From a virus: 47,139 bases of DNA. How positions within the stretch are numbered: position 1 is the first letter of the stretch; each line of letters begins with the position of its first letter. The DNA lies in IMG/VR virus record IMGVR_UViG_3300025652_000131, positions 1-47,139 of that record; one strand, 5' to 3'. The position numbers and the translations under genes are program-made. This document shows, piece after piece, positions 3,220-29,528 of the stretch. The notes under the pieces were generated by a model, which was not told the origin of the DNA, did no database searches, and was given only the letters and a program-made list of their open reading frames with translations.

Positions 3220-3687
3220 ATGCCCAACCCAAAATACGGTATATCATTTCCATTTAAAGATAGTCAAGAAGGTTTATTTCTTCATATGAATGAATTGCCT
3301 GAAGATGAAGTAAGGTCAAACCTAATACATTTGGTTTTGTCTATAAAAGGTTCTAGATATTTTTTACCAGATTTTGGTACAAATTTAATGAAACATATAT
3401 TTGAACCTTTAGATTCCGCGACCAAAACCTCCATAGATTTAGAAATTAGAGAAGCTGTAAAACAATTTATACCAAACCTAAACATCAATGAAGTTGAAGT
3501 TAAATCAGCGGAAGACCTAAGAGATGAGGAAAATACCCAAGAGGAAGACCCAACTAGGGACCAGAAAACGTTTAGTTTTTCTGATAAAAAACACGGAGCA
3601 AATGAATTTACATTACGAGTACGTATTGATTACAGTATTGGTAGTGGTGTTTTTGAAGCTAGAGATTTTGTAATTATAAATTTATAA
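3220..3687 (+). CDS. gp25: Baseplate wedge protein, gp25/GpW lysozyme-like fold family
   Basis: This 155-residue protein is close to T4 gp25 (132 residues), a wedge component next to the sheath that helps start sheath assembly. Seen: the N-terminal pattern GISFPFKDSQEG, then RSNLIHLVLSIKGSRYFLP and DFGTNL, the characteristic family segment (usually a short block then R...P.FG..L). A polar acidic insertion (about 105-125, rich in E/D) precedes the C-terminal strand region. The next gene starts one base after its stop and is gp6-like, the conserved gp25-gp6 order of contractile-tailed phages. The start at CAATG is the first ATG after the promoter-like element. Confidence 0.85.
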   Translation: MPNPKYGISFPFKDSQEGLFLHMNELPEDEVRSNLIHLVLSIKGSRYFLPDFGTNLMKHIFEPLDSATKTSIDLEIREAVKQFIPNLNINEVEVKSAEDLRDEENTQEEDPTRDQKTFSFSDKKHGANEFTLRVRIDYSIGSGVFEARDFVIINL

Positions 3688-3688
3688 T

Positions 3689-5530
3689 ATGAGTGATAAA
3701 AAAATAGCATACACGGAAAGAGATTTCTTAGGGATAAGAAACGAACTTGTTAGGTTAACCAATAGGTATTACCCAGACTTAATTAAAAACGCAAATGATG
3801 CGTCAATGTATTCAGTATTTTTAGATTTAAATGCTGCAGTAGCTGACAATCTAAATTTTCAGATAGATAGAACATTCCAAGAAACGGTACTACAATATGC
3901 TCAAGAAAGAAGTTCGTTATATAATTTAGCAAGAACATATGGTTTAAAAATACCAGGTAATAGACCGTCTTTGACTGTTTGTGAGGTGTCTATTGTGGTT
4001 CCAGCCTTAGGGGATAAAGAAGATTTTAAGTATTTAGGGTTGTTAAGAAAAGGGTCTCAGTTTAAAGGGGGTGGAAATATATTTGAATTGATGGAAGACT
4101 GTGATTTTTCAACACAATATAATAGTGAAGGTATAGTAAATAGAACCAAAATACCAAACATAGATTCAACTGGAATTATAAGAAATTATACTATAACTAA
4201 AAAAGTTTTAACAGTAAATGGGGTTACAAAAATATTTAAAAAAGAAATAACTGACGTATTAACAAAACCGTTTTATAAATTATTTTTACCAGAAAATAAT
4301 GTTGTGGGTGTAACATCAGTAATACAAAAAGATGGTGTGGGATACCAGAGTCTACCAACAAATTTAGAATTTATGGATAATACCGCTAATATTTGGTATG
4401 AGGTTGACGCTTTAGCACAAGAAGAAGTTTTTGTAGTAGACCCATCATCACCACAAGATAATGTGGGTATTAAAGTTGGTAGGTACCTTAAGGCAAGTCA
4501 AAGATTTATAACTGAGTATACACCAGAAGGCTTTTTTCATTTAACTTTTGGTGGTGGAAATGAAACACCACAAAACTTATTAAATAGTTTTAGTAAAAAT
4601 GGGATTAAAATAAACATGTCTAAGTTTTTAAATAATATGGCCTTAGGTGATATGGTTAAACCAAATAGTACCATATTTGTACAATATAGGGTTGGTGGTG
4701 GAAAGGCTTCTAATGTTGGTGCAGGAGCTATAAATACACTTAATACATATGATTTTGTAATTGCTGGACCAAGTCAACAAATAAACCAATCAGTAGAACA
4801 AAGTTTGTCTGTAACAAATATTACAGCAGCAATTGGTGGTGCAGACCAAATGTCTATAGAAGAAATAAGAAATTATATAACATATAATTTTTCAGCTCAA
4901 AATAGGGCAGTAACAATAAATGATTATGTTTCTAAAGTAAGGACTATGCCTGGCGTGTTTGGTGCTGCCGCAAAAGTGGGTGTCAGTGAAATAGAAAATA
5001 AAATAATGTTAAATATATTATCTTACACACCCAACGGCAAATTAACCTCTATGGTACCACAAGCTCTTATAAATAACATATCAGAATATCTATCCAACTA
5101 TAGAATGATGAATGACTATATTAGTGTTGGGTCAGCTAAAGTTATAGATATAAGTTTTATTATAGATTTAATATTAGAAGACTCGGTAAATCAAGGTGAG
5201 GTGGTGACCAACGTAATAACCCAAATAGGTGATTATTTTGATGTTGATAGGTCAGAAATGGGTGTAGACATATCTTTAGGTGAAGTAAGAAAATTAATTA
5301 TGCAACAATCTGGCGTGTTAAACATTGTTGATGTAAAGGTGTTTAATAAGGTTGGTGGTGAATATTCACAATCTATCTCTACACAACCGTATATACCACA
5401 AACAAATAGAGAAATACAATTAATTGACGATACTATTTACGCACAACCAAATGAAATTTTACAGATTAGAATGCCTAATAAAGATATAGCCATTAGAGTC
5501 AAAAAACCTCAGAAACCCACTTTCTCTTAA
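3689..5530 (+). CDS. gp6: Baseplate wedge protein, gp6/baseplate-J-like
   Basis: This 613-residue protein is comparable to T4 gp6 (660 residues), which forms the iris-like ring of the baseplate with gp25 and gp7. Seen: an N-terminal segment, YTERDFLGIRNELVRLTNRYY, followed by DLNAAVADNLNFQIDR, a typical gp6/baseplate-J start. Further on are GGADQMSIEEIRNYI and NRAVTINDYVSKVRTMPGV (about 390-435), the conserved J-like core. The gene begins directly after the gp25-like stop, so the two are likely co-translated. A 70-base gap follows. The assignment is by motif order and synteny. Confidence 0.85.
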   Translation: MSDKKIAYTERDFLGIRNELVRLTNRYYPDLIKNANDASMYSVFLDLNAAVADNLNFQIDRTFQETVLQYAQERSSLYNLARTYGLKIPGNRPSLTVCEVSIVVPALGDKEDFKYLGLLRKGSQFKGGGNIFELMEDCDFSTQYNSEGIVNRTKIPNIDSTGIIRNYTITKKVLTVNGVTKIFKKEITDVLTKPFYKLFLPENNVVGVTSVIQKDGVGYQSLPTNLEFMDNTANIWYEVDALAQEEVFVVDPSSPQDNVGIKVGRYLKASQRFITEYTPEGFFHLTFGGGNETPQNLLNSFSKNGIKINMSKFLNNMALGDMVKPNSTIFVQYRVGGGKASNVGAGAINTLNTYDFVIAGPSQQINQSVEQSLSVTNITAAIGGADQMSIEEIRNYITYNFSAQNRAVTINDYVSKVRTMPGVFGAAAKVGVSEIENKIMLNILSYTPNGKLTSMVPQALINNISEYLSNYRMMNDYISVGSAKVIDISFIIDLILEDSVNQGEVVTNVITQIGDYFDVDRSEMGVDISLGEVRKLIMQQSGVLNIVDVKVFNKVGGEYSQSISTQPYIPQTNREIQLIDDTIYAQPNEILQIRMPNKDIAIRVKKPQKPTFS

Positions 5531-5600: not shown

Positions 5601-8600
5601 ATGTCATCTAAATCATTTAGGGTTAGAACCCAGGTCGGTAAAGACCAAAATTTAACGTTTGAAATAAAACAAGATTTTGATTTGTTAGAAATCTTAAGCT
5701 TATCTCTAACACAAAGAGATGTGTATACTAGGATGTGTGCTGATTTTGGTGTGGTTTGTGGTAGAGTTATTGTTAATGGTGGTTTTGGTATACCTAACGC
5801 AAAAGTTTCTGTATTCATACCCTTAGACGGGTTAGATGAAACTAACGAAGTTATTAAACAAATTTACCCATACACCCAACCATTTGATAAAAATGAAGAC
5901 GGTATCAGATATAACCTACTAAGCAAGGACCCAACATTTGATTGTCATACACCAGTAGGTACTTTCCCTAATTTAGACGACGTACTAACCCAACAACAAG
6001 TAGAATACGTATATAAAAAATATTATAAATTTACAGCAAAAACAAATGAAGCTGGTGATTTTATGATTTATGGTGTTCCTGTAGGGTCACAAACTATTGT
6101 TATGGATGTAGATTTAAGTGACATTGGTTGTTTTTCTATGTTACCAGAAGACTTTAAAATTAAAGGAGCTCCAGAATCTGATTTTGATGGACCAAAATTT
6201 AGGTCGGACAATGAGATAGATAGTTTACCACAAATAGTTAATCAAACCAAAGTCATAAACATAAATCCTTTTTGGGGTGACGAAGATGAGTGTCAAGCTT
6301 CCATAACAAGAGTGGATTTTGATTTAGGTATTTCAGGCGTTAGAATAGACCCAACAGCAGTATTTATGGGTAGTACAGCAACAGATACGGATAAAGACTA
6401 TGTAAACAAACAATGTAGACCTAAAAAACATATGGGTGAACTATGTAGTTTAATAAGTCAACCTGGAATTATAGATTGTATAAGGTATACACCCCTCACA
6501 ACATTTGATGAAGACGCTTATGGGTACAGCACAGCAACAGGTGGTACAGTCCCAGTATTAGAAAGATATTATTTAGAAGATGGTGGTAGAGTGATAGATG
6601 AAAGTGGTGCTTGGTTAGTTCATTTACCAATGAATTTAGACCATATAACAACAAATGAATTTGGTGAATTAGTTTTATCTTACGACCCAGAAGTAGGTGT
6701 AGCTACAAGAAGTAGGGTAAGGTTTAGGGTGAGACCAGAACAAGCTAGTGGAAGTGCAAGACAATCTAGGAGAGCTTCTTATTTGTTGCCGAATTTAAGG
6801 GAATATAACTGGACATCACAAGGTGATTGGCCTGGTATAGATTATAGGTCATACGCTTTTAGTACAAAATATTCTGATTACCCACCACACGCACAGCAAG
6901 AACTAATGCCGGCCGCAAAAGATTATTTTTACGACATGACGTTTAACAGGGTTTATACACCATCACAATTTCATGACCACGTAAAACATGGAGGACGAAG
7001 AGAGTTTACTGGTGTTAAAGAAATATTACCAGAAGCAGAACAACAATGTGCTACTAGTGCAATGTTTTTTCCTGTAAATAGTGCGGTAAGAAGAAATAAA
7101 TTTATGATAATGCTGTATATGTTTTTATTATCAATACTACATGGATTGTATTTCTTTTTACAGGCTTTGGCCGCAATACTAGCATTTGTGGTTGGTATAA
7201 TATTTTTTATTGTATTTTTAATAATATACGTACTTTGTCAAATCATGTGTGCGTTAATACCTATAGGGGTTAGTTTTTCAGTTTGGAGTTGGGGTTTTTC
7301 TTTCTACCCATTTGGGTTTTTAACACCAATTGCTTCATCCTTAGGTTGTGGAAGTATTCAGATATTTCAGAGTAGCTGTCCACATGAACCAAACGGATGT
7401 GGTTTTTATGGGTTTAGGTTTGGTATTGTAATGTACTCCCTACACCAACAAAAATACCCAGAATGTGAAAGGTGTAAATGTAGAGCAGGGGCAAATTCAG
7501 ATATGCAAAACTTATCAAACAGTACTTGTTGTGAACTTATGGACCCTAACTGTGGTACTACTGGTGGTGGGGTACCTACATCACCATGCTCTGTAGGTAA
7601 TGCACCTGGAGGAGCTAGTGTGTTTAATTTACTTATTTGGACTGACGATATTTGTTGTCCTGATTATAATTCCGAAGACGAAATATGTTGTCCAGATAAC
7701 TATGGGTACGACTCGACAGCTAACGGTACAGGTTCAGGTGGTGGAAAAGATGAGTACGCGGGTGGTGGTTGTTATGTAAAAGTTATATGTATAAACCCAG
7801 CTTGTATAGCTAACAACTTTAATATGGTTGTAATAAACGAATATATACGTAGAGAAAAAGTAGCTGTAGCCTTATGTAATGGTATTATGAATTATTTTTG
7901 GGAAAATGATTGGGTTAGTGGATTCCTATATCAATTCCAGTTTAGAGCAAAATTACAATTTGCTGTTGGTGGATTTACAGACTATAAGGGTATTGTTCAC
8001 GATACCTACACAGACTCAAGTTACTGTAAAAAAACAGCATACATACACCCAATAGACCACGTATTTTACTATAGGTCTTGTCCAGCACAAAACGTAAATC
8101 AAGCTAACCCAGGTGCCTTTATGGGTGATGATGATGGTGTGTATAATCCTTGGTGGGCTTTTGCTGGTAGTAGTGGTAGTGACCATGCATCGGGAGATAT
8201 GAATAGACATATATTATTTCCAACAACTATAGTAGATATGGGTTCTAGAAACCAATGTATACAACAAGTATGTTTTGATGAAAGATTCGGTACAGAATGC
8301 TCTGTTACAGACCAAATAGGTAGTACAACATTCCAAGACATTACAGATTTAGTTTCAGACGTATATAACATGAAAATGGATAACCCAAATATGGCTCTTT
8401 ATTCATTCTTCGTAAGACCAGAAAAAGAAATTGGTGGTGATGTAGCACAATGTTTAATGCAAAATTGTATGTTGGGAGTATTTGGGTACGAAACCAATGT
8501 AGGTGGTACAGAATGTGAGTGTCCAACTGGACCAACAACAACACCACCAGTTAATGCACAAATGGAGTATCCAATACCTAACGTAGCTGTAGGCCCTAAT

Positions 8601-9104
8601 GGAACAGGTATTTACGTACCCAACGCACTTAACATAATGGGAGCTACATATTATGATATTGAATGGGAACCACTTATGTTTACAGCATCAACACAAACAA
8701 TGATGACTGGGGTAGATTTAATAAATTGTTTAACTTACGATTTATCTGCCTCATCACAAACAGTACCATTTTATTCTTGGCGTTTAGATGGCGCTCCAGG
8801 AGCAGCATTTGGTACATGGAAAAATGATTGGGCTGGCACTTTAGGGGAGTATGAGTTTGATACTTGGGGTGGAGCCTCTGTAACATCTACTAGTCCTTGG
8901 GGTAATAACCCAATTTTAGCGGGGGACTATCAAAATAATATGGCACCATCACTAACCAGACCAATACTAACACCAACATCCGACTCAAATATAAATTTTT
9001 CACAACCACTATTTTATTATTTTGGGTTAAGACCAGGACAAACAGCATTTAACACTTTTGTACGAAAATATGTTGATGAAGAACTAGCTAATTCTGTTTT
9101 ATAA
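5601..9104 (+). CDS. Large virion protein with carboxypeptidase-regulatory-like domain and central hydrophobic segment
   Basis: This 1167-residue protein follows gp6, where T4 encodes the large wedge protein gp7, so a baseplate role is likely, though I see no sequence match to gp7. Seen: GRVIVNGGFGIPNAKVSVF (about 53-72), then TNEAGDFMIYGVPVG (about 148-163), the hallmark of a carboxypeptidase-regulatory/CNA-B-like beta sandwich. Residues 502-560 are almost entirely hydrophobic, enough for two membrane spans. A cysteine-rich stretch with CxxC and CC pairs follows (about 615-700), then a non-repetitive C-terminal half. The start is ATG after an AT-rich leader. The stop overlaps the next start by one base (TAATG). 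A membrane-spanning length is unusual in a baseplate protein and may be released on contact with the cell. Confidence 0.7.
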   Translation: MSSKSFRVRTQVGKDQNLTFEIKQDFDLLEILSLSLTQRDVYTRMCADFGVVCGRVIVNGGFGIPNAKVSVFIPLDGLDETNEVIKQIYPYTQPFDKNEDGIRYNLLSKDPTFDCHTPVGTFPNLDDVLTQQQVEYVYKKYYKFTAKTNEAGDFMIYGVPVGSQTIVMDVDLSDIGCFSMLPEDFKIKGAPESDFDGPKFRSDNEIDSLPQIVNQTKVININPFWGDEDECQASITRVDFDLGISGVRIDPTAVFMGSTATDTDKDYVNKQCRPKKHMGELCSLISQPGIIDCIRYTPLTTFDEDAYGYSTATGGTVPVLERYYLEDGGRVIDESGAWLVHLPMNLDHITTNEFGELVLSYDPEVGVATRSRVRFRVRPEQASGSARQSRRASYLLPNLREYNWTSQGDWPGIDYRSYAFSTKYSDYPPHAQQELMPAAKDYFYDMTFNRVYTPSQFHDHVKHGGRREFTGVKEILPEAEQQCATSAMFFPVNSAVRRNKFMIMLYMFLLSILHGLYFFLQALAAILAFVVGIIFFIVFLIIYVLCQIMCALIPIGVSFSVWSWGFSFYPFGFLTPIASSLGCGSIQIFQSSCPHEPNGCGFYGFRFGIVMYSLHQQKYPECERCKCRAGANSDMQNLSNSTCCELMDPNCGTTGGGVPTSPCSVGNAPGGASVFNLLIWTDDICCPDYNSEDEICCPDNYGYDSTANGTGSGGGKDEYAGGGCYVKVICINPACIANNFNMVVINEYIRREKVAVALCNGIMNYFWENDWVSGFLYQFQFRAKLQFAVGGFTDYKGIVHDTYTDSSYCKKTAYIHPIDHVFYYRSCPAQNVNQANPGAFMGDDDGVYNPWWAFAGSSGSDHASGDMNRHILFPTTIVDMGSRNQCIQQVCFDERFGTECSVTDQIGSTTFQDITDLVSDVYNMKMDNPNMALYSFFVRPEKEIGGDVAQCLMQNCMLGVFGYETNVGGTECECPTGPTTTPPVNAQMEYPIPNVAVGPNGTGIYVPNALNIMGATYYDIEWEPLMFTASTQTMMTGVDLINCLTYDLSASSQTVPFYSWRLDGAPGAAFGTWKNDWAGTLGEYEFDTWGGASVTSTSPWGNNPILAGDYQNNMAPSLTRPILTPTSDSNINFSQPLFYYFGLRPGQTAFNTFVRKYVDEELANSVL

Positions 9105-11747: not shown

Positions 11748-14700
11748 ATGGAAGTACAAAAGTTTAGAATAAAAAGAATAAATCCAGACATACACTGGGA
11801 GATACCCTGTAGTGGGGGGACCAATTTTTGGCCTATAAATACTAGTACAAATTGTTCAGGAGTTACCATGTACAACGCAACTGGGATTGATGTTATGTCA
11901 GCAATTAATGGTGATATACTTAATATATTTCCTGAAGAATTAAAACACTGTTCACCTATAGACCCTTGTGTAATTTTATGGAACACCGGACCAAGTAGTA
12001 GTCCATTCCATTGTACAAGTATTGACGGTTTTCAATATACGTTATTTAAAGGTTTAAATGTTACTTTATCTGGAAATACATATACGGATAGTTTTAACCA
12101 AACACAAAGTGTTATAAGCATCGGTAATGCTAGTATTAGCCCAGTTAACATAACACCAAATACATTTGGTTGTGAATGTCAAAATCCGTTAGGAGAACAA
12201 CTAAGTAAAATACCAATTTTTATAAGCCAAGATTTTAATGATATTGGACATTACTCTGTTTGGGATGGAAATATATCACAACAAGAAATTTTTGCAAATT
12301 TTATATTTTCAGGAGTATCTTCAGGTGGTATGGACGTGTTAGTTACTAACACAACAGACTTTGGCTACTACGAAACATTTCAAAAGTCACCATATACTAT
12401 AGATTGGGGTGTACTAGGTATGTCTACACAAGTACTGTACTACCCAAGTTTAACAACACAATCACTACACACCTACACAACACCAGGACAATATACCATA
12501 ACAATCACTCAAGACTCACCATGGGGACCGCTAAGCACGTCAAAAGTTATAACAGTACCTCTAGAGACTTACGCTGTAATGGCTGGGTCAGTAATATCAC
12601 CAACAAACCCTACATTACAAATGGACCAAGCTAGCCCATTACTAGGACCTATGACTTATGATATATTTGGTAATCCAAGTGGTTTTCAAGGTGGTTCTAC
12701 AGGGTATTTTAACGATTACCCTAATATGCCTCTTGATTCTGGAACACATATAAATCAGTATAGTGGTATGACTTTTGGTGCTGGTTCACAAGGAGGACAA
12801 CCATGTTTTACAGTATCAGGAATTACAGACAGTATTTTAGGAAATTTCCAAACATACACTAACTCAAACACCGCTAACCTACCACCAGGATTTAATGCTG
12901 GGGTTACAGTACCTATAGGTGGTGACGTACTAGACCCAATAACTAATGGATTTTTAACTGGGGTTTATGGTACTATAGATTTTGCTGGAGCAGCTTATAC
13001 AGCTTACACAATATCTTCAGCAGCTAATTCTACAGGTGTTGCAGATGGTGATACACCTATTAGATTCTGGGACTTTAATAATGGTATAACAATTTTTGAA
13101 GCTACTAGTTGTGGTTTAGATAATTTAGCTTGGGGTGCTGAGGAATGTATAGCTTGTCCATCAGGAGATTGTGAATATTGTACAACAAAAGATGAGTATG
13201 TAGATAGAGTAACTGGAGTACCACACAGTATTGGTCCTGGTGTTGTCGTAGGTGACTGGTCACCAAGTGGAAACTACAGTATAGGTGATATTGTTTACGA
13301 CGTAACATTTAACTCTTGTTGTTGTTATATGGCAGTTACAAACATATCATCATCAGACCCATGGTTTGGTACTGCACCTGTTATGATGGAAGAAGGTACC
13401 TATAACGATGGTGGTGTATATACACATGTGTGGGAAGCATGTGCACCAGAATGTGTTTCATGTCCACCAGGAACAAATACACCGTGTAACGACTTTACAT
13501 TAGTAAGTTACATTTATAGTTCAGGTAACTTTTATAACGCTGGTGATTATGTAGAAGGAGAATATGGAAATTGTTACCAAGCTTTAGTTAGTGGTACTTT
13601 AAGTGCACCTACTGGTTATACAATGCAATACTCAACTGAATGGGATTATATAGGTTGTGTAAGTTGGATTTGTCCTGTAGAGGGACCAGAAGCAAATTGT
13701 GATTATGATTGTATAGCTAACCCACCTATAAACGGTATTTGGAATGCAGGTCAAATGAATAGTGCTCCATTTGGTTGGTTAGGTGGAGTATGGAGCTCAG
13801 GATTTGGTTTATATTTTGAAAATGATACAGCAAATTATAATGGTGTTTGTTATGTTTGTTTAAATGCTAATGTTGCAGCATACTTCCCTTGCTCTGACAC
13901 AGCAACCTATGGACCACCAGACACATCACCAATGTGGCAAGCATGTCCTCTACCTGGAGCAAGTAATCTTGATTGTATTATGATATCTGGAGCAACACTA
14001 GATACATTAGACCAATTTGGTAACCCAATAACTGTAACGGGTGAAATGTTTTGGGGTGACTGTAACATTAACTTAATAAGTGGTACCTGTTTTGAAAATA
14101 GGTGGAAATGTATATCTCAATACTCATGTCAAGGATGTATACCTATATTATCTGATGACCCACTATACTTCACACCATTATCATTCGCAACAGAACAAGA
14201 TTGTATTGATTATTGTGAACCACCAGCTTATTCGTGCACAACACCATCAGCTGTTGGGGTTCCTTGTTGTGATGAAATAAATTGCTTTTTAGACGAACCT
14301 CTTTATGTTAATACTATGATTAGTGTTAACGCGATAAATAGTACAGCTACGGACCTAGCTTACAATCATGACCTATTTATAAGTCCAATATACAATATAA
14401 ATGACTGTAATAATGGTGTGGCAGCTAACACCTTAAATAATTTATTTTTACCACCAATGAATATAGCACCTAATGGGGCTATATTAGAATGTTGTATTAA
14501 TACAGTCTGGACTTGGAATTGTGAAACTGGGTGTGAGTCAACTGGTGGGTTACCATCACCAGGACCTTTAACTATTGGTTCAGAAATACCAGGTAATGTA
14601 TTATGGCCTACATCAGCAGATTGTGAACAAAATATGTTGATATATTATGGGGTTGCAAATGTTATTGGTGATGTTCCTTGTAGTTGGTGGTGTGAAGACC

Positions 14701-17700
14701 CTTTTTTACCATATAATCCACCATCACCAGGACCATATCAAAGTCCTTGTATACCATGTTATAGCATATCTTCATGTCCACCAGTACCAATTGCATCACC
14801 AGGTGGTGCAGGTCCATTCCCAACGGAAGCAGCTTGTGTAACAGCTTGTACTTCCGTACAGACATGTTGGCTTTGTGATTGTGACAACTCTACCCCATGT
14901 GTAGATACATGGCCAGACCCTTGTCCCACACTTATCTCTCAAAATCCTAACCTATATGGTCCAGACCCATCAGGAGGATTAAACGGGATAGTATCTTTCC
15001 CTAGCCAAGCGGACTGTTTAGATTTTTGTCAATGTAATTTTGGTTGGGATTGTTTTACTGATACAGGACAAACACCAAGTGTTAATGTTGGGTGTCAACT
15101 TGGGTCTTCCCTTGCTAATATAAATGCTTTAGGTTGGCAAACTAGTGACCCAGACCCTCTATTTACTGGTTATACTAATTACTCAGCGTGTTGTTACGCA
15201 AATGAAGGTTGTTGTTACGCAAAATGTGATGATGACCCAACATCCAACCTAAATCAAAACTTTTATCCAACAGCCGGAATACCTTCACCTCTAGGTGATT
15301 GGCCTTGTTCATACGAAGTATCGTTATTTGTAACCCCAGGACCACCAGCCGGATGTAACGACCCAACGCAACCGGGTTATGTCTATGACCCAAATCTTCC
15401 ATGGTGTTTTATGTTTGATTGTACTAACGCCTTATGTTCAGGAGATACATATCCAACATGTTGTGACGAAGAAAGTGATGCGTGTGATTGTGCATGTCAA
15501 GCACCAGTAAACTCAATGGGTGCTTGGGATAGTTTATATAACTTTTACGATTTAAATGATGCTGTTTACTGGGGTGATACAGATACTGATTTCTGTTGTT
15601 TTAAATGTCATTGTGATATTATACTTCCACCAGGACAACCATTTACTCCAGGTGATGCAAGTACATACGATTGTAACCATTTTACTCCTGGAGACCCACC
15701 TCATATGGGTGTACCTAATTGTTGGAGAAGTTGTAATCAAACACCAGGACCAATTCCTTTACCGTTTGTATGGCAAGGAACATCTTATAACCCATGTTCA
15801 GCTTGTACAAGTGGTGGGTATGACCCAGGATATTCATGTACACCAGATGGGTGTCAACCTAGTGGGTGTAATCCAGGTCTAGGAACAGGACCACTAGTTA
15901 ATTGTTACAGTGGCCCAACCTGTGATGATGGTAGTGGCCCTGAGTGTGTTGCACAATGTTTTTGTGTACCAGGAACAAGTCCTTGTTTACCTATGTGTGC
16001 AACCTACCAACAAGAATTAATTCTAGCGTCAGGACCAATACCAACAGACTGTCCACCAAATGTTTATGCTTATAACTCCTATAATGAATGTATGGGTATA
16101 AACCCAGTTAATCTTTTATTACCAGATTGTTGTCCTACGGTACGACCTCCACAATGGTATTGTGATGATAGTGCACCTTGTAGTAGTAATTATCCACCAG
16201 TAGTAAATGTAGATGGTACTGGTTGTGTACAGGTAAATTCTGGTCATGCACAATACCAAGACCCTATAACTACAAACTTTACTTCATTAGCCAATTGTCA
16301 ACAAGAATGTAATTGGTGTTGTGATAAAAATGGTTTGTCCGTATGTACTTTTGTTGGTAACATAACAAATTGTGCTGGTACGGCATACGTTAATGCTTTA
16401 GATTGTTACTTAGCGACCGCAACAAATACACCGTGTGATTGTTCATTAGACGCAAAAGAAATTTGGTGTCATTACGACCAAGTAAACGATATTGGTGGTT
16501 GTGTAAGTAACACTAGTGGTTTATTAGATGTAAATTTATTTGGTTCAGGTGGTTTAGATAGAGCCACAGACCCAGGAGGGTTCTTTACAAGTTTAGGTAA
16601 TTGTAAAGAAGCTTGTAAATTTTGTTGTGATTGTGATATTAGTGGGGAGTGTTTATTAAATTGGTACTGTGCGGCGTTAAATCCAGGAGGAACTTATGGA
16701 TGTGCATGTCACTCATGTTATGAGGACTTATCACTTTGTGCTGTAAACGAAGAACCATGTGTTACCATATATCAAGATTATTATTGTGATGATATTTTGG
16801 GTTGTGTAGTTTACCCTGTAATTAATAATTTAATTTCAGGTCCATATACAGGACCTTCAGCCTTATCAAGTTGTCAAAAAGTATGTCAATTTGAATGTAA
16901 TGATGCGTGCGTGTGCGAAGTTACATCAACACCAACTAACCCACTTAATTGGTCTCCACCATGTTTTTCATTGGCTTGTTGTGATTCTTTAACAACTTTT
17001 GGTGAGAAGTGTTGTGGTTGTGATGAATGTGAAAACGGTACATACCCATATTCTTACGATAATGGGTTAGGTGTGTTATTAACTTATTGGATTACGATAA
17101 CAACTTTTAATAACACCCCATTAGGTTGGTCTCCAGCAGGTAATCCAGTAACCGGAGGACCATACCAATATGGTGATATTGTAACCCAAGACGGGTGTTG
17201 TTATATAATGATACTGGCAGACGGTGATTGGTCTAGTTATGACACTACAATGTTACCTTCAGATTATTACAACATATATATGAATGTTATGAATACCACA
17301 GGTTTACCAGTATATGGTACTGATATAATGTGGATTCCATGTGACGCAGATTGTCCACCTGTTACATATAAAGAAAGATGGTGGTGTGACTCAAACCTAG
17401 CTTACAACACCACCTACCCTAATATTCAACATAGTCAATCAACTAATTGTGTACAAGAATATCCCTACATTGATAACCAAGTAAATTCTATTGCTACTTA
17501 TGGTGATTTTGTTTATGGTACAGCAGGAAATACAAGTGCTCAACTAAGTTATAATTTAGGAGCTACCCCTTTTGATAGTTTAGCTGAATGTCAGGAATTA
17601 TGTGTTTTTTGTTGTGACCCTACACCTACAGCACCTTGTTGTTGTTGTAAAGATGATGGTTTCGGTCAGTGTAGCCCAGGAACATCACAATCACCAGTAA

Positions 17701-20324
17701 ATCCATTAGGACTTCCTTGTGACCAAGCATGTGCTAATCTTACTTTAATTGAGTGTCCACCAGCACCTTGTTGTTGTTGTGAAGATGATGGGCAAGGAGG
17801 GTGTTTACCTAACACACAACAGATGATGTTTAACCCAACAGGACTTCCTTGTAACCAAGTATGTTCAGGTCCTGGAATTATTGAATGTAAATCAGGAAGT
17901 GGTTTGGGTAATTGTAAAATATGCTGTCAACACAATGATGGTCAAGGAGGTACTACTTTTTATGTGGTACAAGGCCCAATACCTTGTAAGTGTAATTGGG
18001 GTGACACTCAAGTAGGTATGGGTAATTGTGGTATAATGCCAAACTTAACTAATGCTAGTAGTCCACGTAGTTATGTGGCAACAGAAATGAATAAAGAGGC
18101 TATGATTACTGACCCAACAGGACCATTAGGACCACTAGGACCAGTAATAGGTCCAGGAGGACTTATACCAGCTACAAACGCTGGACCATCACCATGTTGT
18201 ATAGTATGTCAAACACCAGGAGGGTCACAATACCAAGTAAACGGTTTTAATCCCCCAGGATGTAAATGTCAAAGTTTCCTGGATTTACAACTACAACAAC
18301 CCTGCATAACATCACCACCAGTAAGTCAACCATGTTATTTAGATTGGAATTGTAATACATGTACAAATGATTGTCATGATAGTTACTATAGTTGTATGAC
18401 ATTAACCAATAATTGTTCACAAGCGGATTGTGCAGATTGTGTAGGTAAAAAAATAGAGTGGATAAGACAAGGGCCTGGGTTTAATGGGTATTTTAATCCA
18501 ATATTACACCCTACAACTGGACAATTTACGATGTCACAAATTGGTGTACCAGCTACATTTGATGGTTGGTTTTTTCCAAATGTAATACCACATTCAACAC
18601 CACAAACATGGACCAACACAGAACCATATTGGAATTATGGACAAATAGTGATAGACCCAGCAACACCAGATTGTTGTTGGGTTAGGACCGTAATGTGGGA
18701 TACTAACGATGTCCCAAATCTAACTCCTGACCAGTATTCACCATCAGAACATTGGTGTAATTATTTATCAGGTAATAGTGCAGATGGAGCAAATATGTAT
18801 AACCCAATTGGAGGTACTGCAATAGGGGCGACTCAGCAGGGTGGTGTACCTGGTGGAGGTTCTCACCCATGGTGGGCACCTTGCGATAAAAAGTGTGTAT
18901 CATGTCCAACTGGGGGAACACCTACATTAACATGGAAGTGTCAAGAAAATGTATCTTTAAGTGTTGGTTGTGTACAAGGTAATTACCCTCCTGGTGACCC
19001 ACATGTTTTCGCAAATCAACAAGACTGTAATGATAAGTGTTGGAGTTGGTTATGTAATACTAATCCGTTTTGGGGTGGGTACTCTAAATGTAGTACAACT
19101 AACCATAGTGGTGTGGTAGGTTCGGGAGAAGACTTTATAAATTTCTTTATTAATCATGTTAACCCTAACTTACAAGCTATAAATATGGTGTATACTTTAG
19201 GTGCAGCATTGATACCATCTCCAAGTTTTCCGACGTGGGTTGTTTGGCCACCAGTTAACACATATTACCCTTGTCCTATTACAACAGGACCTAATGCTTC
19301 GGGCTATTTATTTACAGTAGACTCAGCTCTATTACACGCACACTACACTAACTCCGGTAACGGTCCTTGTGCGTTCACACTTAGTCAAGCTTTTAGTACT
19401 GGTTCTGATTGGGCTAGTACATATACTAACGTCCAAATTAACTACAACACACATATTGAAAATTGTATAAGTCTTGCTGACGTAAATGATGTTATGCGTA
19501 ACGATAATTGTCAATATACACCAGGACCATTCGCTACTACTCATCCATGTTTTGGATTACCAGGAGCTGGTACTTTAGCTGTAACAACTGTGGGTTCTGA
19601 AAAATTTAATGATTCGGGTCTGTATACAGACCCAGGTGCACCAACATTATTATGTCAAGTATATGACGCTTCAAAAACAAGCTATGCAAGTCAGGGTTGT
19701 TGTGTTGAGATGAAACACCACGCATACAGGTCATGTCCTTGTAACTTTGGTTCGTCAATTTGTGATTGTTGGCAAATAACAGGTACTGGTACAACGGGAG
19801 GCCCAGGAAATGTTTGGGACTATGCATTCCCGATAGACGACTATACGGGATGTACACATTCTTGTTGTCAAGGTACTTGTGGTTGTTGTGAACCAAATTT
19901 ACAAAATGCTGGTTATATAGGGCCAAATGACAATTTAACTTGGGTTGGATTAGGAGCTTCATCATTTTCTACAACCCCATCAAACAAAACACTTCAGATT
20001 GGTGAATGTTTTATGGTACCTGATGGTACTTATGCTGGTGGAAATTATGGTCCTGACGTAAGTGGTTTGTGGAATTATGGTACAGGTACATTATCGGGGG
20101 GTTGTTGTGTGTGTTGTGTAGCTGGAGGAACCGGTATTGACCCAGACCCACTAAACGATGGAATACCAGGGAATTGTTTCTTTACTATAGACTCATCAGA
20201 TGGTTCATCAGGACAATCTGGACTTTGGGATATATTTAACCTTTATGAATATGATGGGCAATTTGTTTCATGTGGGGTTGATGAAAATTGTGATGGTTGT
20301 GGTACTGGCATAGTACCGTTATAG
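11748..20324 (+). CDS. Giant cysteine-rich modular tail adhesin (PKD-like, CBM5/12-like and disulfide-knot modules)
   Basis: This 2858-residue protein is by far the longest gene here. Seen: an N-terminal region with few cysteines containing a PKD-like domain (about 185-275, with HTYTTPGQYTITI). From about 480 onward cysteine density is very high. At least six segments resemble CBM5/12 carbohydrate-binding modules (W...Y..GD.V......CC/CY......W..C) near 502-568, 584-632, 663-729, 1257-1325, 1792-1861 and 2292-2375. Interspersed are knot-like units of the form W.C...GC...F.S...C...C, for example near 1467-1522, 1570-1630, 1675-1718 and 1875-1957. Two near-identical 44-residue units with a CCCC run lie at 1962-2049. 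No signal peptide or membrane segment. It most likely forms a disulfide-stabilised fibre or surface array binding host polysaccharide. The CBM and PKD calls are by eye; the function is inferred. Confidence 0.65.
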   Translation: MEVQKFRIKRINPDIHWEIPCSGGTNFWPINTSTNCSGVTMYNATGIDVMSAINGDILNIFPEELKHCSPIDPCVILWNTGPSSSPFHCTSIDGFQYTLFKGLNVTLSGNTYTDSFNQTQSVISIGNASISPVNITPNTFGCECQNPLGEQLSKIPIFISQDFNDIGHYSVWDGNISQQEIFANFIFSGVSSGGMDVLVTNTTDFGYYETFQKSPYTIDWGVLGMSTQVLYYPSLTTQSLHTYTTPGQYTITITQDSPWGPLSTSKVITVPLETYAVMAGSVISPTNPTLQMDQASPLLGPMTYDIFGNPSGFQGGSTGYFNDYPNMPLDSGTHINQYSGMTFGAGSQGGQPCFTVSGITDSILGNFQTYTNSNTANLPPGFNAGVTVPIGGDVLDPITNGFLTGVYGTIDFAGAAYTAYTISSAANSTGVADGDTPIRFWDFNNGITIFEATSCGLDNLAWGAEECIACPSGDCEYCTTKDEYVDRVTGVPHSIGPGVVVGDWSPSGNYSIGDIVYDVTFNSCCCYMAVTNISSSDPWFGTAPVMMEEGTYNDGGVYTHVWEACAPECVSCPPGTNTPCNDFTLVSYIYSSGNFYNAGDYVEGEYGNCYQALVSGTLSAPTGYTMQYSTEWDYIGCVSWICPVEGPEANCDYDCIANPPINGIWNAGQMNSAPFGWLGGVWSSGFGLYFENDTANYNGVCYVCLNANVAAYFPCSDTATYGPPDTSPMWQACPLPGASNLDCIMISGATLDTLDQFGNPITVTGEMFWGDCNINLISGTCFENRWKCISQYSCQGCIPILSDDPLYFTPLSFATEQDCIDYCEPPAYSCTTPSAVGVPCCDEINCFLDEPLYVNTMISVNAINSTATDLAYNHDLFISPIYNINDCNNGVAANTLNNLFLPPMNIAPNGAILECCINTVWTWNCETGCESTGGLPSPGPLTIGSEIPGNVLWPTSADCEQNMLIYYGVANVIGDVPCSWWCEDPFLPYNPPSPGPYQSPCIPCYSISSCPPVPIASPGGAGPFPTEAACVTACTSVQTCWLCDCDNSTPCVDTWPDPCPTLISQNPNLYGPDPSGGLNGIVSFPSQADCLDFCQCNFGWDCFTDTGQTPSVNVGCQLGSSLANINALGWQTSDPDPLFTGYTNYSACCYANEGCCYAKCDDDPTSNLNQNFYPTAGIPSPLGDWPCSYEVSLFVTPGPPAGCNDPTQPGYVYDPNLPWCFMFDCTNALCSGDTYPTCCDEESDACDCACQAPVNSMGAWDSLYNFYDLNDAVYWGDTDTDFCCFKCHCDIILPPGQPFTPGDASTYDCNHFTPGDPPHMGVPNCWRSCNQTPGPIPLPFVWQGTSYNPCSACTSGGYDPGYSCTPDGCQPSGCNPGLGTGPLVNCYSGPTCDDGSGPECVAQCFCVPGTSPCLPMCATYQQELILASGPIPTDCPPNVYAYNSYNECMGINPVNLLLPDCCPTVRPPQWYCDDSAPCSSNYPPVVNVDGTGCVQVNSGHAQYQDPITTNFTSLANCQQECNWCCDKNGLSVCTFVGNITNCAGTAYVNALDCYLATATNTPCDCSLDAKEIWCHYDQVNDIGGCVSNTSGLLDVNLFGSGGLDRATDPGGFFTSLGNCKEACKFCCDCDISGECLLNWYCAALNPGGTYGCACHSCYEDLSLCAVNEEPCVTIYQDYYCDDILGCVVYPVINNLISGPYTGPSALSSCQKVCQFECNDACVCEVTSTPTNPLNWSPPCFSLACCDSLTTFGEKCCGCDECENGTYPYSYDNGLGVLLTYWITITTFNNTPLGWSPAGNPVTGGPYQYGDIVTQDGCCYIMILADGDWSSYDTTMLPSDYYNIYMNVMNTTGLPVYGTDIMWIPCDADCPPVTYKERWWCDSNLAYNTTYPNIQHSQSTNCVQEYPYIDNQVNSIATYGDFVYGTAGNTSAQLSYNLGATPFDSLAECQELCVFCCDPTPTAPCCCCKDDGFGQCSPGTSQSPVNPLGLPCDQACANLTLIECPPAPCCCCEDDGQGGCLPNTQQMMFNPTGLPCNQVCSGPGIIECKSGSGLGNCKICCQHNDGQGGTTFYVVQGPIPCKCNWGDTQVGMGNCGIMPNLTNASSPRSYVATEMNKEAMITDPTGPLGPLGPVIGPGGLIPATNAGPSPCCIVCQTPGGSQYQVNGFNPPGCKCQSFLDLQLQQPCITSPPVSQPCYLDWNCNTCTNDCHDSYYSCMTLTNNCSQADCADCVGKKIEWIRQGPGFNGYFNPILHPTTGQFTMSQIGVPATFDGWFFPNVIPHSTPQTWTNTEPYWNYGQIVIDPATPDCCWVRTVMWDTNDVPNLTPDQYSPSEHWCNYLSGNSADGANMYNPIGGTAIGATQQGGVPGGGSHPWWAPCDKKCVSCPTGGTPTLTWKCQENVSLSVGCVQGNYPPGDPHVFANQQDCNDKCWSWLCNTNPFWGGYSKCSTTNHSGVVGSGEDFINFFINHVNPNLQAINMVYTLGAALIPSPSFPTWVVWPPVNTYYPCPITTGPNASGYLFTVDSALLHAHYTNSGNGPCAFTLSQAFSTGSDWASTYTNVQINYNTHIENCISLADVNDVMRNDNCQYTPGPFATTHPCFGLPGAGTLAVTTVGSEKFNDSGLYTDPGAPTLLCQVYDASKTSYASQGCCVEMKHHAYRSCPCNFGSSICDCWQITGTGTTGGPGNVWDYAFPIDDYTGCTHSCCQGTCGCCEPNLQNAGYIGPNDNLTWVGLGASSFSTTPSNKTLQIGECFMVPDGTYAGGNYGPDVSGLWNYGTGTLSGGCCVCCVAGGTGIDPDPLNDGIPGNCFFTIDSSDGSSGQSGLWDIFNLYEYDGQFVSCGVDENCDGCGTGIVPL
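17631..17894 (+). repeat. Tandem 132-bp (44-residue) CCCC repeat, two copies
   Basis: Unit 1 is 17631-17762 and unit 2 is 17763-17894, directly abutting and in frame. Both open with the same 18 bases, GCACCTTGTTGTTGTTGT (APCCCC). Both keep eight cysteines at identical positions (3-6, 14, 30, 34, 42) plus the shared segment GLPC.Q.C. Looser relatives follow (NCKICC..., PCCIVC...). This is a recent tandem duplication inside the giant adhesin gene. Confidence 0.85.
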
Positions 20325-20382: not shown

Positions 20383-20604
20383 ATGTCTTTACAAAAAGTT
20401 GAAGTAAAAGGGTGTATAGTTCCACTAACAAAAGAGGAAGTATTGATGAATGTGTGTGAAAGACCAGAAGTTAGGTCTAACATATTCATAGAAAGAGGTA
20501 GGATTACTGTTTTTGAAAGACCACAAAGGTTAGGACAGGTACCAAATCTAGGTGAACTAGAATTACACGGAAGAGGATTCTATAAAATTGACAAACAACC
20601 TTAA
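20383..20604 (+). CDS. Small conserved-looking virion-block protein
   Basis: This 73-residue protein has no cysteine-rich or membrane features. It is charged, with a proline/arginine-rich centre (FERPQRLGQVPNLGELELHG). The family is unknown. It starts after the second AT-rich element and is followed three bases later by another structural gene, so it opens a new cluster. The ATG is the first in frame after the element. Confidence 0.5.
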   Translation: MSLQKVEVKGCIVPLTKEEVLMNVCERPEVRSNIFIERGRITVFERPQRLGQVPNLGELELHGRGFYKIDKQP

Positions 20605-25319: not shown

Positions 25320-28300
25320 ATGGCAAAAATTTATAATAGTAGTGTTGATTTTAGGGTACTCAGTAATGAGTTAAAGTTTGTGTTTTATGCTTCAGGCACA
25401 TTTAATAATAAAACATATAATAAAAGAAAGTGTTTTACTTTAACATACGACACACAGTTTCCAGCTGAAGTTTTTGTAAAAACAGAAAATAACAGTAAGA
25501 GATTATTCCTAAGATTCAAAGCAAAATACGTAAAAGTAAAAAAATATTTAGACCCAATAGGTATTAATAAAACAGACATTGTTTTAGAAGTTTTTGTTGG
25601 TAGTAACGGAAAATATTCTTTTGAGTCAGTAAAAGGCAAAGACTTTGGAGCATTTTTATCTCATAGAAATTATTACAACCCACAAAAAACCAGTACTGGG
25701 GGTGTTATAGGAGCTCTAAAACCAAATACAGGACAACACCCAATCAGAATGGTATTGCCTAGTGTAGGTAAAAAAAATGTTGACAGTTTTTCTTTTGACA
25801 TGGACATTCTATCTCAATACTGTGGACAATACACAACTTCTTTAAGTTTTAACTGTGAGGTTACTGATAATGTTGTTATAGAAGGTTTTATGCCGGACAT
25901 AATAATACCTAAACAAACAATAGTCCCAAGAAAAAAAATAAATCTTAGTACTGTTTACCTAACACTAGATAATAGTGATTTAAGTTCTGGTGAGGTTAGG
26001 TATGACTATAAAAAACAATTAACCAAACAAAACATACCAGCAGAAGCTTTGGAGTTAGTTAATAGCCAAGTATATGCAATAGAAAATGACTTTAAAATTA
26101 ACGCTAACCTAATGGATTTTAATTTAGGGTCTACTAATAAAATTGAAATACCTTATAATATCAGTAGAGAAGTTAATCAGGGTGAAATAAAAGAAACACC
26201 AAAAGTAGTAATTAACGGAAAAGAAATAAGTATTATAGATTGGCCAAGTGAAATAAGAAATAACGAAATATTTTCATCAGGTAATAAATGTATATCACTA
26301 AAATTCACTAACGAACAACAACAAATAGCCTTTAGTGAAAAATTAAAAACACAACAAATAGGTAGTAAAGAAACATATAACGTTGTAGAACCTAATGGTG
26401 GGATAAGACCGGTAAGTAGGGTTTATAGTGACATTTCACAATGGATTAAACGTTCAACACTAAACCAATTTAACGATGTTAGGTTTACCTACGATAATAA
26501 TGATTTAATAAAAGAAATTTTAATATGTCCACGTAAAAAAACTGTAATAGGTTCTACAAAATCTGGTAGACAAAATGGGTTGCATACAAAAGGAAATGAA
26601 TTACTTCTAGATGGTAATGACTACATAGGTTTTTACCATATAGGTAATAATAGTGTGCCATATACCGGAAGAAGCCCAAAAAGTTTGACCAATGAAGATA
26701 CATCGTACCAAACAACCGGAGGTGAAGCACCTAAAAAATTAACATTCTTGTTTAAGGATGCCCCAATACAAAAAAATAGTAATACAGATTTTTGTTTTAC
26801 AACCAATGGTAGGTACGGAGGAATATATTCTGCACACACAACAGCTATAACAAACACCTACGACATAACAATTAGTGGGGCTTCATACTCAGCTAACACA
26901 TCACTACCAATAAGTGATTTTAATTTAAACAACCCTATTAACTTAATAGGGGATTATACAAAAAGTTATAGACCATACGCTTTTTACAATGTTTATAATG
27001 ATGGGTTAATATTAAACAATTCTGACAGTGGTGATTATATGACTTATAGTGCTCAAAGTAATGGTTTATATAGGCTAACATATAAAGGTTATTTAACAGT
27101 TGGGTATAAAGACACTAAATGGTGTGAATATTTAAGTAGTGTTTATGCTTCTGCTATGACAGGAACTTACCCTTCTACCGACTACGAAATTAAAAGATTG
27201 GTAAACACCTCTTTAATTAACGCTGGAATAGGTGAAACAACTACAGCATTAATGGACACTGGCTTTAAGTATTATCCTGGTAAAAGGGGGGAAAACACTA
27301 ATGGAATAAAAGGTTTTTCTTTTGTAGTTTCTTTAATTAAAACATCTTCCGCTGGAACAGAAACTACGTTAGCGGAACACAGAGTTCTAAGAACTAGTGA
27401 TGATGGTGTAGCTAACGACTATTTAAAATTACAAGTAACAGATATAGACAAGTTTTCTAGTGCTTCTACAGTTTGTAATATGACTGGGACTTCAGGAACA
27501 ACAATATTTGAATACAATGGTGAAGTTAACGTTGATACTGGGTTTGTTAATTTAATTAAAGGAGATAAGGTTCAGTTAAAGTATGCTTGTGTTACAGAAA
27601 CAACATCTAAATTAGGGACTGGTGGTACAACCACTATAACAGTAAATTTAGGTCATAAATTAAATGATGATGGTAAGGAATCAGAATCACCATTTTTTAG
27701 AGCTATTAAATCAGCAAGTAAAGTAAGTAAAAAAGACCTATTTTTTGACCCAACAGAAGCATCTCAAGGGTTTGAAATGGTTAAAGGAAATAATCGTAGA
27801 ACAGTCAACCTAGAAGGTTCCCTATACATAACAGACAACGGTTGTAATACAATAAGTGTACCTAAAGTTAACACCCAAACATTTAATAACCTTACTTTTA
27901 TAGATAGTAATGGTAATAACAATATACTAACTTGGGATATAATTAAAAATAGGCCAACAAATAAATGGCAATCTCTAATAGAAAAAAACCTAATAAAAGA
28001 TTACACACTTAAAAACGGTACTATTGATTATATGACAAAAATGCTTAAAGACGGTATTTTTAAAATGTGTTTACCACAATATGACCAAGATTATAAAGCA
28101 ACTTGTTTATATAAGTTTCCACAACAAAGACATTCTTATGTGGTTGTAAATACATTTAAAGATTTGTACGGTAAACAAATTATAAATTATATTGTTATAA
28201 CACCTAAATGTGGGTTATTTAAACCATGTTCACACGAAAAACCAATAACTTCATATGACATATTACATAAAACTACACCGGATAAATGGAAAGTAGTTAA

Positions 28301-29528
28301 TGTTGACAAAGAGATAACTATTGACGGGAAGGTAATAACAATAGTAGACCCAAAAACCGCGGTTAAACCAGCTTCAGTAGACTGTCAATACTACTGTAAA
28401 TGTGGGCAAAAAATGGCAAACAAACTAAAAATAGACCCGATATTTGGAATATCAGAAATAATGACTGATGGTGACTCTATTGATTGTGTTGATTGTGTTA
28501 CTAGAGCAAATAACCATTGTAAAAAATTAGGGCCAAGCTGTGAACCAGTAGTTATAAATTTTTGTGCAAAAGATGGTGAACTTGTTAATGAAATTATTAC
28601 ACCAGGAGTCACACCTATAAAACCTAAAGGTGTTTTACCAGTCAAGTCAAGTGATGGTGGTGGGACTAATCCGGGACCATCAAAACCAATTACAGATTGT
28701 AGTTATGGCCCATGTAGGTATAGTTGTGGAAGAGTTGGTGGTAATTTAGGTAGGACTAGTTATGATGGTAACACTGGATGTATAGAAGACCCTAGAGGTG
28801 AATTTAGTAGTTATGATGATTGTGAAAAATCTTGTAGGGATAGAAGTGGTAGTGGTTTAGGTAGTACAACTTCACTATACGCTTGTGTTAGAAATGCCGC
28901 ACCAACAGAAAAATCAAGACAAGGTAAATCAAATGTTGGGTCAATAAGGGTCTCAAGTGCTTGTATAGAAAGTCCTCAAGGAACATTTAAGTCGATAGAA
29001 GACTGTAACAAAGTTTGTGTTGAAAGAAAATGTGGATGTAGGTGTGAACCAGGGGGTTGCAACCCTACTGAGCCAACAGGATGTGGCAAATGGAATAACT
29101 GGTGTGGTTCAGGGTATGGTTCAGGTTCAGGTGATGGTGGTGGTGAAATAGAAAGATGGTCTTGTTTTGAAGGACTATGTTTTGAATCGGAAGGTAGTGC
29201 AATGCCTGCAGGACCCGTGTTCAGTAGTCTTAAAACATGTAGTGAATTTTGTAAAAAACAGGTTATAACTGAAACTAAAGATGATGAAAGAGAAAAAGAA
29301 AAAGATGAGGTAATAACTGACGAACAAAAAGAAAAAGAAAAAATAGACCAAATAGAAAACCCACTTGTACCGGAAGCAATAAAAGAACAACTTATTAAAT
29401 TATCCGGTAGTGGAGATGGGGCGTCAACAAAAGATAAAAGTGATTCTAGTGGTATTTGCCCTAAAGGTACCTATTTTTGTAAAGTAATAAATGAATGTTT
29501 ACCTAATGATGTGGTTTGTCCAAAATAA
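25320..29528 (+). CDS. Large tail protein with C-terminal disulfide-knot repeats
   Basis: This protein has 1402 residues. The first about 1080 residues are an unrecognised beta-rich region; cysteines begin to pair near 1018 (CQYYCKCGQ). From about 1123 three units follow the pattern C....C...GC(I/V)E...G.F.S...C...C, near 1123-1170, 1186-1235 and 1277-1311. The same pattern occurs in the 2858-residue protein. Glycine/serine linkers (GSGYGSGSGDGGG) separate units. A highly charged K/E/D stretch (about 1317-1348) then leads to a final small cysteine module ending VVCPK. No signal peptide. The shared knot ties this protein to the giant adhesin, suggesting a common surface or assembly role. The start ATG lies four bases after the upstream stop. 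Confidence 0.6.
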   Translation: MAKIYNSSVDFRVLSNELKFVFYASGTFNNKTYNKRKCFTLTYDTQFPAEVFVKTENNSKRLFLRFKAKYVKVKKYLDPIGINKTDIVLEVFVGSNGKYSFESVKGKDFGAFLSHRNYYNPQKTSTGGVIGALKPNTGQHPIRMVLPSVGKKNVDSFSFDMDILSQYCGQYTTSLSFNCEVTDNVVIEGFMPDIIIPKQTIVPRKKINLSTVYLTLDNSDLSSGEVRYDYKKQLTKQNIPAEALELVNSQVYAIENDFKINANLMDFNLGSTNKIEIPYNISREVNQGEIKETPKVVINGKEISIIDWPSEIRNNEIFSSGNKCISLKFTNEQQQIAFSEKLKTQQIGSKETYNVVEPNGGIRPVSRVYSDISQWIKRSTLNQFNDVRFTYDNNDLIKEILICPRKKTVIGSTKSGRQNGLHTKGNELLLDGNDYIGFYHIGNNSVPYTGRSPKSLTNEDTSYQTTGGEAPKKLTFLFKDAPIQKNSNTDFCFTTNGRYGGIYSAHTTAITNTYDITISGASYSANTSLPISDFNLNNPINLIGDYTKSYRPYAFYNVYNDGLILNNSDSGDYMTYSAQSNGLYRLTYKGYLTVGYKDTKWCEYLSSVYASAMTGTYPSTDYEIKRLVNTSLINAGIGETTTALMDTGFKYYPGKRGENTNGIKGFSFVVSLIKTSSAGTETTLAEHRVLRTSDDGVANDYLKLQVTDIDKFSSASTVCNMTGTSGTTIFEYNGEVNVDTGFVNLIKGDKVQLKYACVTETTSKLGTGGTTTITVNLGHKLNDDGKESESPFFRAIKSASKVSKKDLFFDPTEASQGFEMVKGNNRRTVNLEGSLYITDNGCNTISVPKVNTQTFNNLTFIDSNGNNNILTWDIIKNRPTNKWQSLIEKNLIKDYTLKNGTIDYMTKMLKDGIFKMCLPQYDQDYKATCLYKFPQQRHSYVVVNTFKDLYGKQIINYIVITPKCGLFKPCSHEKPITSYDILHKTTPDKWKVVNVDKEITIDGKVITIVDPKTAVKPASVDCQYYCKCGQKMANKLKIDPIFGISEIMTDGDSIDCVDCVTRANNHCKKLGPSCEPVVINFCAKDGELVNEIITPGVTPIKPKGVLPVKSSDGGGTNPGPSKPITDCSYGPCRYSCGRVGGNLGRTSYDGNTGCIEDPRGEFSSYDDCEKSCRDRSGSGLGSTTSLYACVRNAAPTEKSRQGKSNVGSIRVSSACIESPQGTFKSIEDCNKVCVERKCGCRCEPGGCNPTEPTGCGKWNNWCGSGYGSGSGDGGGEIERWSCFEGLCFESEGSAMPAGPVFSSLKTCSEFCKKQVITETKDDEREKEKDEVITDEQKEKEKIDQIENPLVPEAIKEQLIKLSGSGDGASTKDKSDSSGICPKGTYFCKVINECLPNDVVCPK

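Follow-up and report, generated by a model that had tools for sequence, protein, structure and literature searches.

A giant cysteine-rich modular protein in the baseplate locus of a contractile-tail phage: a probable enlarged form of a small PKD protein

Background

Phage tail proteins are usually poor in cysteine. The 47-kb viral record analysed here (47,139 nucleotides, referred to as the window) comes from a contractile-tail phage and contains a gene for a 2,858-residue protein with 227 cysteines. What is this protein, how did it arise, and what may it do for the phage? A first-pass annotation, made from the DNA letters, had read it as one cysteine-dense gene combining a PKD-like domain, at least six CBM5/12-like modules and many disulfide-knot-like units, and had proposed a rigid surface array that would bind polysaccharide.

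Results

The giant gene

The open reading frame runs uninterrupted from the ATG at 11748 to the stop at 20324.

11748..20324, + strand: giant Cys-rich modular protein, 2,858 aa (ORF, translation, orthologs, dN/dS)

The single frame of 2858 residues was confirmed, as was its cysteine density: cysteine makes up 7.9% of the residues, against 0-5% in the remaining genes of the window. Lysine and arginine together account for 1.7%, compared with 4.6-17% in the other window genes, and the net charge is about -210. No transmembrane segment and no obvious signal peptide were found. A tape-measure or helical-fibre identity was rejected, as composition and predicted strands are unsuited to either.

A full-length ortholog is found on a 210-kb viral contig with 60-64% identity. 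The genes flanking the giant are 68-95% identical to this relative, and the giant is thus the fastest-evolving of the compared cluster. Comparison with the nearest ortholog gave a dN/dS of 0.293/1.08 (0.27); purifying selection acts on the gene. Twelve or so additional contigs, assembled from other metagenomes, carry homologous unbroken ORFs of 2,440-2,991 aa. These two observations refute an assembly or annotation artefact or a decaying gene, which we regard as practically out of the question.

The baseplate locus

The window opens with part of a helicase gene and a ribonucleotide reductase; homologues of gp25 and gp6 follow, then a few large unknowns, the giant, tail-fibre-like genes and replication genes.

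3220..3687, + strand: gp25-like baseplate wedge protein (Pfam GPW_gp25, 4.9e-12)
3689..5530, + strand: gp6/BppJ-like baseplate wedge protein (PHROG baseplate wedge, 5.9e-21; 28% to the baseplate wedge protein of Flavobacterium phage immuto)
20608..21528, + strand: conserved baseplate-locus gene, 306 aa, used as synteny anchor and tree gene

The giant gene thus lies within a baseplate cluster, having gp25 and gp6 homologues upstream and tail-fibre homologues downstream, and the gene order is conserved across the 23 loci examined in detail. This is the position of a baseplate or tail protein. Phages immuto and Mel-JY01 and one 484-kb phage have only gp25, gp6, fibre and replication genes in common with the window, and no counterpart of the giant was found in these three.

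Several neighbours were recorded as well. The ribonucleotide reductase (867-2798) is 68% identical to that of Microcystis phage Mel-JY01 and 63% to those of Vibrio and Oceanospirillum phages, although the window gp6 is just 27% identical to Mel-JY01 gp6; gene exchange is therefore likely. A 1,167-aa baseplate-locus protein at 5601-9104, with relatives up to 1,900 aa, is strongly hydrophobic at residues 501-557. The stretch recurs in the relatives, and a membrane-inserting tail component is possible. The 259-aa product of a gene in the tail-fibre cluster (35385-36164) scores above the Pfam cut-off for a dockerin domain of type I (2.7e-12) and has an N-terminus like that of the adjacent fibre-like genes; the same gene is present in the 210-kb ortholog phage.

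Searches with tblastn gave no match to the giant among 50,697 phage records, and PHROGs gave none. No cultured-phage homologue was found by tblastn for the giant, the 1,167-aa gene, a 1,402-aa gene of the window or the small protein described below, in keeping with the first-pass annotation, to which no described phage system of this form was known. The anchor gene gave a single weak partial match to cultured phages (tblastn, E 6e-2), and no relative of it, prophage or bacterial, was confirmed in an 84,980-species genome collection. A 431-aa array segment was not found in 395 Bacteroidota genomes in a search run without a positive control.

One slot, three sizes

The size class of the slot occupant was read in 101 loci with the 306-aa neighbour as anchor. 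Most loci carry a small form, a Cys-poor PKD protein of 351-482 aa (0-2% Cys). About nine loci (L013, L016, L017, L029, L038, L039, L043, L044, L061) carry a split form consisting of two Cys-containing genes. The giant form occupies at least 13 loci (2,440-2,991 aa, 7.4-8.6% Cys).

The small protein consists of an N-terminus, a PKD domain, a second domain and a C-terminal peptide. By BLAST it matches giant residues ~155-490 as well as the first split gene, with E-values down to 4e-22. Its last ~55 residues reappear as the terminal part of the second gene of the split form, and in giants this peptide is a separate, easily missed gene.

20383..20604, + strand: 73-aa gene for the C-terminal peptide that the small/split protein carries undetached (LTKEEVLMNV..RSNIFIERG..VFE..QRLGQ..GELELHG.GFYKI; 24 family hits)

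The extra part of the giants consists of CBM5/12-like modules alternating with short four-Cys units; the alternation proposed by the first-pass annotation is real for CBM-like and Cys-rich modules. Among viral proteins the best fold match came from an uncultured phage: a 'PKD domain-containing protein' of 364 aa (A0A6J5L9U6, E 8e-14). A scan of viral contigs with the giants' N-terminal alignment returned 28 loci, mostly giants. The giant is accordingly not a free-standing protein; it is the enlarged version of a PKD protein that is small and widespread and sits in this slot in other phages.

In the anchor tree the giants form one clade (100/99) and the small forms another, with the splits beside both, and the size-class labels require just two changes. 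Given this placement of the splits, expansion from a small ancestor and reduction from a split-like one are both compatible with the tree.

Some giant-type phages alone have an additional ORF of 192-213 aa between the giant and the 73-aa gene (L009:9136-9771, L014:9111-9740, L015:9108-9746, L034, L035, L041, L042), nucleotidyltransferase-like by eye. The first split gene of L013 has a segment similar-looking to the dockerin gene. The second split genes of L016, L017, L029 and L013 carry repeats of type GCTDPLALNYDPNATADDGSC, a pattern which we take to be one of Bacteroidota secreted proteins.

Phage and host

Three further Cys-rich giants of 2,948, 1,740 and 1,002 aa (5.0-6.0% Cys) are encoded by the 210-kb ortholog phage. 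The 2,948-aa protein (L123:7123-15969) has 146 cysteines and long runs of four-Cys units; the 1,740-aa protein (L123:1868-7087) has a central HINT/intein-like domain (PT-HINT, 1.5e-21). The best 80 matches of the DnaK of this phage are all from Bacteroidota (64-71%), and several of its proteins start with signal peptides of Bacteroidota-like appearance, as judged by eye. Together with the likeness of gp6 to that of a Flavobacterium phage, this indirectly makes Bacteroidota the likely host.

The same phage encodes HSP70, DnaJ, FKBP, cyclophilin, thioredoxin and glutaredoxin. HSP70/DnaK is also present in small-type relatives of up to 318 kb and therefore belongs to the broader group of phages and not specifically to the giant. 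A folding machinery dedicated to the giant is consequently unsupported, and neither the chaperones nor thioredoxin and glutaredoxin can be tied to it.

N-terminal part and PKD domain

11835..12182, + strand: N-terminal alpha/beta domain (residues ~30-145), present in giants (AlphaFold2 pLDDT 73-91 over most of it; conserved in 7 giants)
12282..12578, + strand: PKD (Ig-like) domain, residues 179-277, part common to the small form (VIA-align fold match, Pfam in relatives, BLAST)
12804..13112, + strand: second domain, residues 353-455, which the small protein has too (columns that are invariant in the small, split and giant forms)

The PKD-like domain held up. Residues 180-271, modelled mostly at pLDDT 50-80, align with the PKD domain of the Bacteroides surface glycan-binding protein SGBP-B with Z 8.8, rmsd 2.0 over 77 residues and 23% identity (VIA-align), and the same region matches PrtV PKD1 with Z 7.7. 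The region has the Ig-like beta sandwich of ~80-90 residues that defines PKD domains. Pfam PKD scores 10.8 bits in the window protein against a gathering cut-off of 27; it was found in 6-7 of 21 family members, down to E 3e-5.

CBM5/12-like modules

13257..13442, + strand: CBM5/12-like module 1, residues 504-565
13518..13658, + strand: CBM5/12-like segment 2, residues 591-637 (motif in giants alignment)
13740..13946, + strand: CBM5/12-like module 3, residues 665-733
15525..15734, + strand: CBM5/12-like module 4, residues 1260-1329
17127..17342, + strand: CBM5/12-like module 5, residues 1794-1865 (model matches chitin-deacetylase/chitinase CBM5/12, best Z 4.2)
18609..18884, + strand: CBM5/12-like module 6, residues 2288-2379

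All six segments carry a pattern of the W..Y..GD.V...CC...W..C type, the weakest being 591-637 and 665-733, and the proposed minimum of six modules is thereby reached. The CBM5/12 core motif, W..Y..GD.V with a C-terminal W, is present, and W, Y, G and W are invariant in an alignment of 24 modules. Among giants, module 3 is found only in those of the window and of the nearest relative; the related 210-kb phage has a 50%-identical copy in a different gene.

With Pfam CBM_5_12 the window protein scores 8.8 bits (E 2.3; cut-off 26.2). The best relative reaches 19.6 bits, and a split relative E 9.6e-4, under the cut-off. We therefore call the modules CBM5/12-like and not members of the family. The label is fair, since the top five PDB chains found with a profile of the 24 modules are chitin-deacetylase CBM12 domains (E 0.04-0.06). 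In a fold search with module 5, the top ten matches were likewise all chitin-deacetylase CBM12 domains, at Z of at most 4.2 on a low-confidence model.

Four-Cys units

14103..14216, + strand: four-Cys unit, residues ~786-823 (iterated HMM)
16155..16310, + strand: four-Cys unit, residues 1470-1521 (motif and iterated HMM)
16461..16616, + strand: four-Cys unit, residues 1572-1623 (motif and iterated HMM)
16758..16892, + strand: four-Cys unit, residues ~1671-1715, weakly similar in structure to Kunitz domains (iterated HMM, fold match)
17379..17603, + strand: four-Cys unit, residues 1878-1952 (motif and iterated HMM)
18963..19040, + strand: probable four-Cys unit, residues 2406-2431 (motif only)

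An iterated HMM found at least five four-Cys units in the window giant, 4-8 in other giants and none in 60 shuffles; a looser motif gives about ten in the window giant. Each unit carries four invariant cysteines. Of the disulfide-knot-like units first proposed, the repeated Cys-rich units stand, and the knot does not: they are not knottins by any test made. A knottin or inhibitor cystine knot has six cysteines in a knotted topology, and no significant Pfam knottin match was obtained. Kunitz/BPTI domains, with six cysteines and three disulfides, were rejected on the same cysteine count. The top PDB matches of the four-Cys profile are Kunitz domains and non-significant (ixolaris, E 0.22; conkunitzin, E 0.25); the units weakly resemble the C-terminal half of these domains and are half-Kunitz-like at most. 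The AlphaFold model of residues 1455-1885 (pLDDT 54.5) is too poor for topology. The C-terminal part of the 1,402-aa protein (25320-29528) has similar four-Cys units.

Cysteine conservation

Compared with the nearest ortholog, at 62% overall identity (62-64%), 224 of the 227 cysteines are kept. Tryptophan comes next with 82%; lysine is at 43% and histidine at 34%. Among 13 giants (~35% identity), 119 of 149 gap-free cysteine columns are invariant, the next best residues being arginine and tryptophan (29% and 23%). Nearly all cysteines are conserved while the remainder diverges, which implies that they hold the fold. Non-conserved cysteines often seem to be gained or lost as near-neighbour pairs (window 1004/1010, L008 2601/2615, L041 924/929, L042 2430/2438). 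From the conservation and this local pairing we infer that disulfides are favoured over metal sites. Binding of Zn or Fe-S as the main role is disfavoured by the paired changes, the poorly kept histidine and the number of CxxC motifs (27 observed, 18 expected).

Discussion

Most likely, the phage is a jumbo myovirus of Bacteroidota and the giant an array that its tail turns towards host or particle; virion location, disulfides and sugar binding are what we infer for it. We see an even chance that a baseplate-locus protein has been expanded, by insertion of modules into the PKD protein, into a disulfide-stabilised, glycan-binding surface array on the tail. The N-terminal/PKD part would stay on the baseplate and the Cys-rich array would project from the tail. 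While the phage adsorbs reversibly to its Bacteroidota host, the CBM-like modules might touch polysaccharide on cells or particles, chitin-like or of another kind. The protein has no export signal, which leaves three possibilities for disulfides: they form once the phage is released, they form inside the cell by another route, or they do not form. As there is no signal peptide, we expect the cysteines to pair within modules, for the most part in oxygenated water once the cell has lysed.

The main competing reading is structural armour that binds no sugar: stapled by disulfides, the array would encase or brace the baseplate from outside, with the CBM-like folds serving as scaffold. Cysteines conserved far beyond anything else would be expected of such a brace, the disulfide-linked baseplate and sheath of phage Milano set a precedent (PMC10811340), and the baseplates of other tails and contractile-injection systems do contain CBM-like folds (8kec, 8fqc, 7b5h). 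We nevertheless hold armour alone to be rather unlikely: Milano structural proteins average far less cysteine than the giant, the small-protein relatives manage without an array, and the conserved tryptophans, with an invariant W and Y in each CBM-like module, are what is expected if aromatic faces matter.

A redox or metal device, whose cysteines bind Zn or Fe-S or form a switch that is reduced at the host surface and triggers contraction, would suit a Cys-dense protein made without an export signal, the thioredoxin and glutaredoxin genes of the related 210-kb phage and the requirement of Milano contraction for reduction. The low excess of CxxC, the few and poorly conserved histidines and the local paired gain and loss of cysteines make it improbable. 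Lower still we place a late protein outside the virion, which lysis would set free or the infected cell would display, perhaps to block superinfection or to aggregate cells. It would agree with the lack of signal peptide and transmembrane segment; the position amid baseplate genes in all relatives and the conserved core common to the small form in the same slot speak against it.

Beyond this locus, we tentatively suggest, as a possibility short of an even one, a class of Bacteroidota jumbo phages whose large tail proteins exceed all known ones in cysteine density. These would be glycan-binding arrays armoured by disulfides and encoded by multi-kilobase genes, of which one 210-kb phage has four Cys-rich giants; they would be synthesised in the reducing cytoplasm, become oxidised only on release, and attach the phage reversibly to cells or particles coated with polysaccharide. 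With ~180-255 highly conserved cysteines in one baseplate-locus protein, the means, place and time of forming dozens of disulfides in a tailed phage become open to test. The family also raises the question whether redox state gates assembly or infection, and the small/split/giant series is a natural experiment on host-recognition machinery growing by module insertion.

Comparison with known systems

Modular carbohydrate-binding phage proteins and disulfide-linked tails are already known. For the size, the cysteine density, the conservation and the small/split/giant series, the searchable literature holds no description; a keyword search of open-access papers found no description of such a giant, an absence which is weak evidence.

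Agrobacterium phage Milano has a contractile tail with functional disulfides in its structural proteins, which average 2.1% Cys (PMC10811340). A region of its receptor-binding complex (8fqc) is matched by a CBM5/12-like module with Z 3.1. Milano differs in having mainly inter-subunit links and no giant modular array, whereas the giant concentrates its 7.9% Cys in one protein. In modular adhesins of gut phages, Ig-type domains make virions stick to surfaces (PMC13370021). Their modules are Ig-like, they belong to other phages and another habitat, and the abstract does not mention a Cys-rich array.

The CBM5/12 domains of chitin deacetylases, chitinases and some phage fibres share the W..Y..GD.V pattern and a beta fold of ~45 residues with the giant's modules. 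The latter have an added CC and a terminal Cys and fall below the Pfam cut-off, and their glycan binding is putative. The four-Cys units have the last-cysteine spacing of Kunitz/BPTI domains, C...[FY].[ST]...C...C, and match them weakly by profile and fold, below significance and with four cysteines instead of six.

The closest known relative is the small PKD protein of uncultured Caudovirales phages (A0A6J5L9U6; loci L018-L028). It is homologous by sequence and fold, occupies the same slot and has the PKD domain, the second domain and the C-terminal peptide. Unlike the giant, it is without the Cys-rich array of 2,000-plus residues, and its peptide is undetached.
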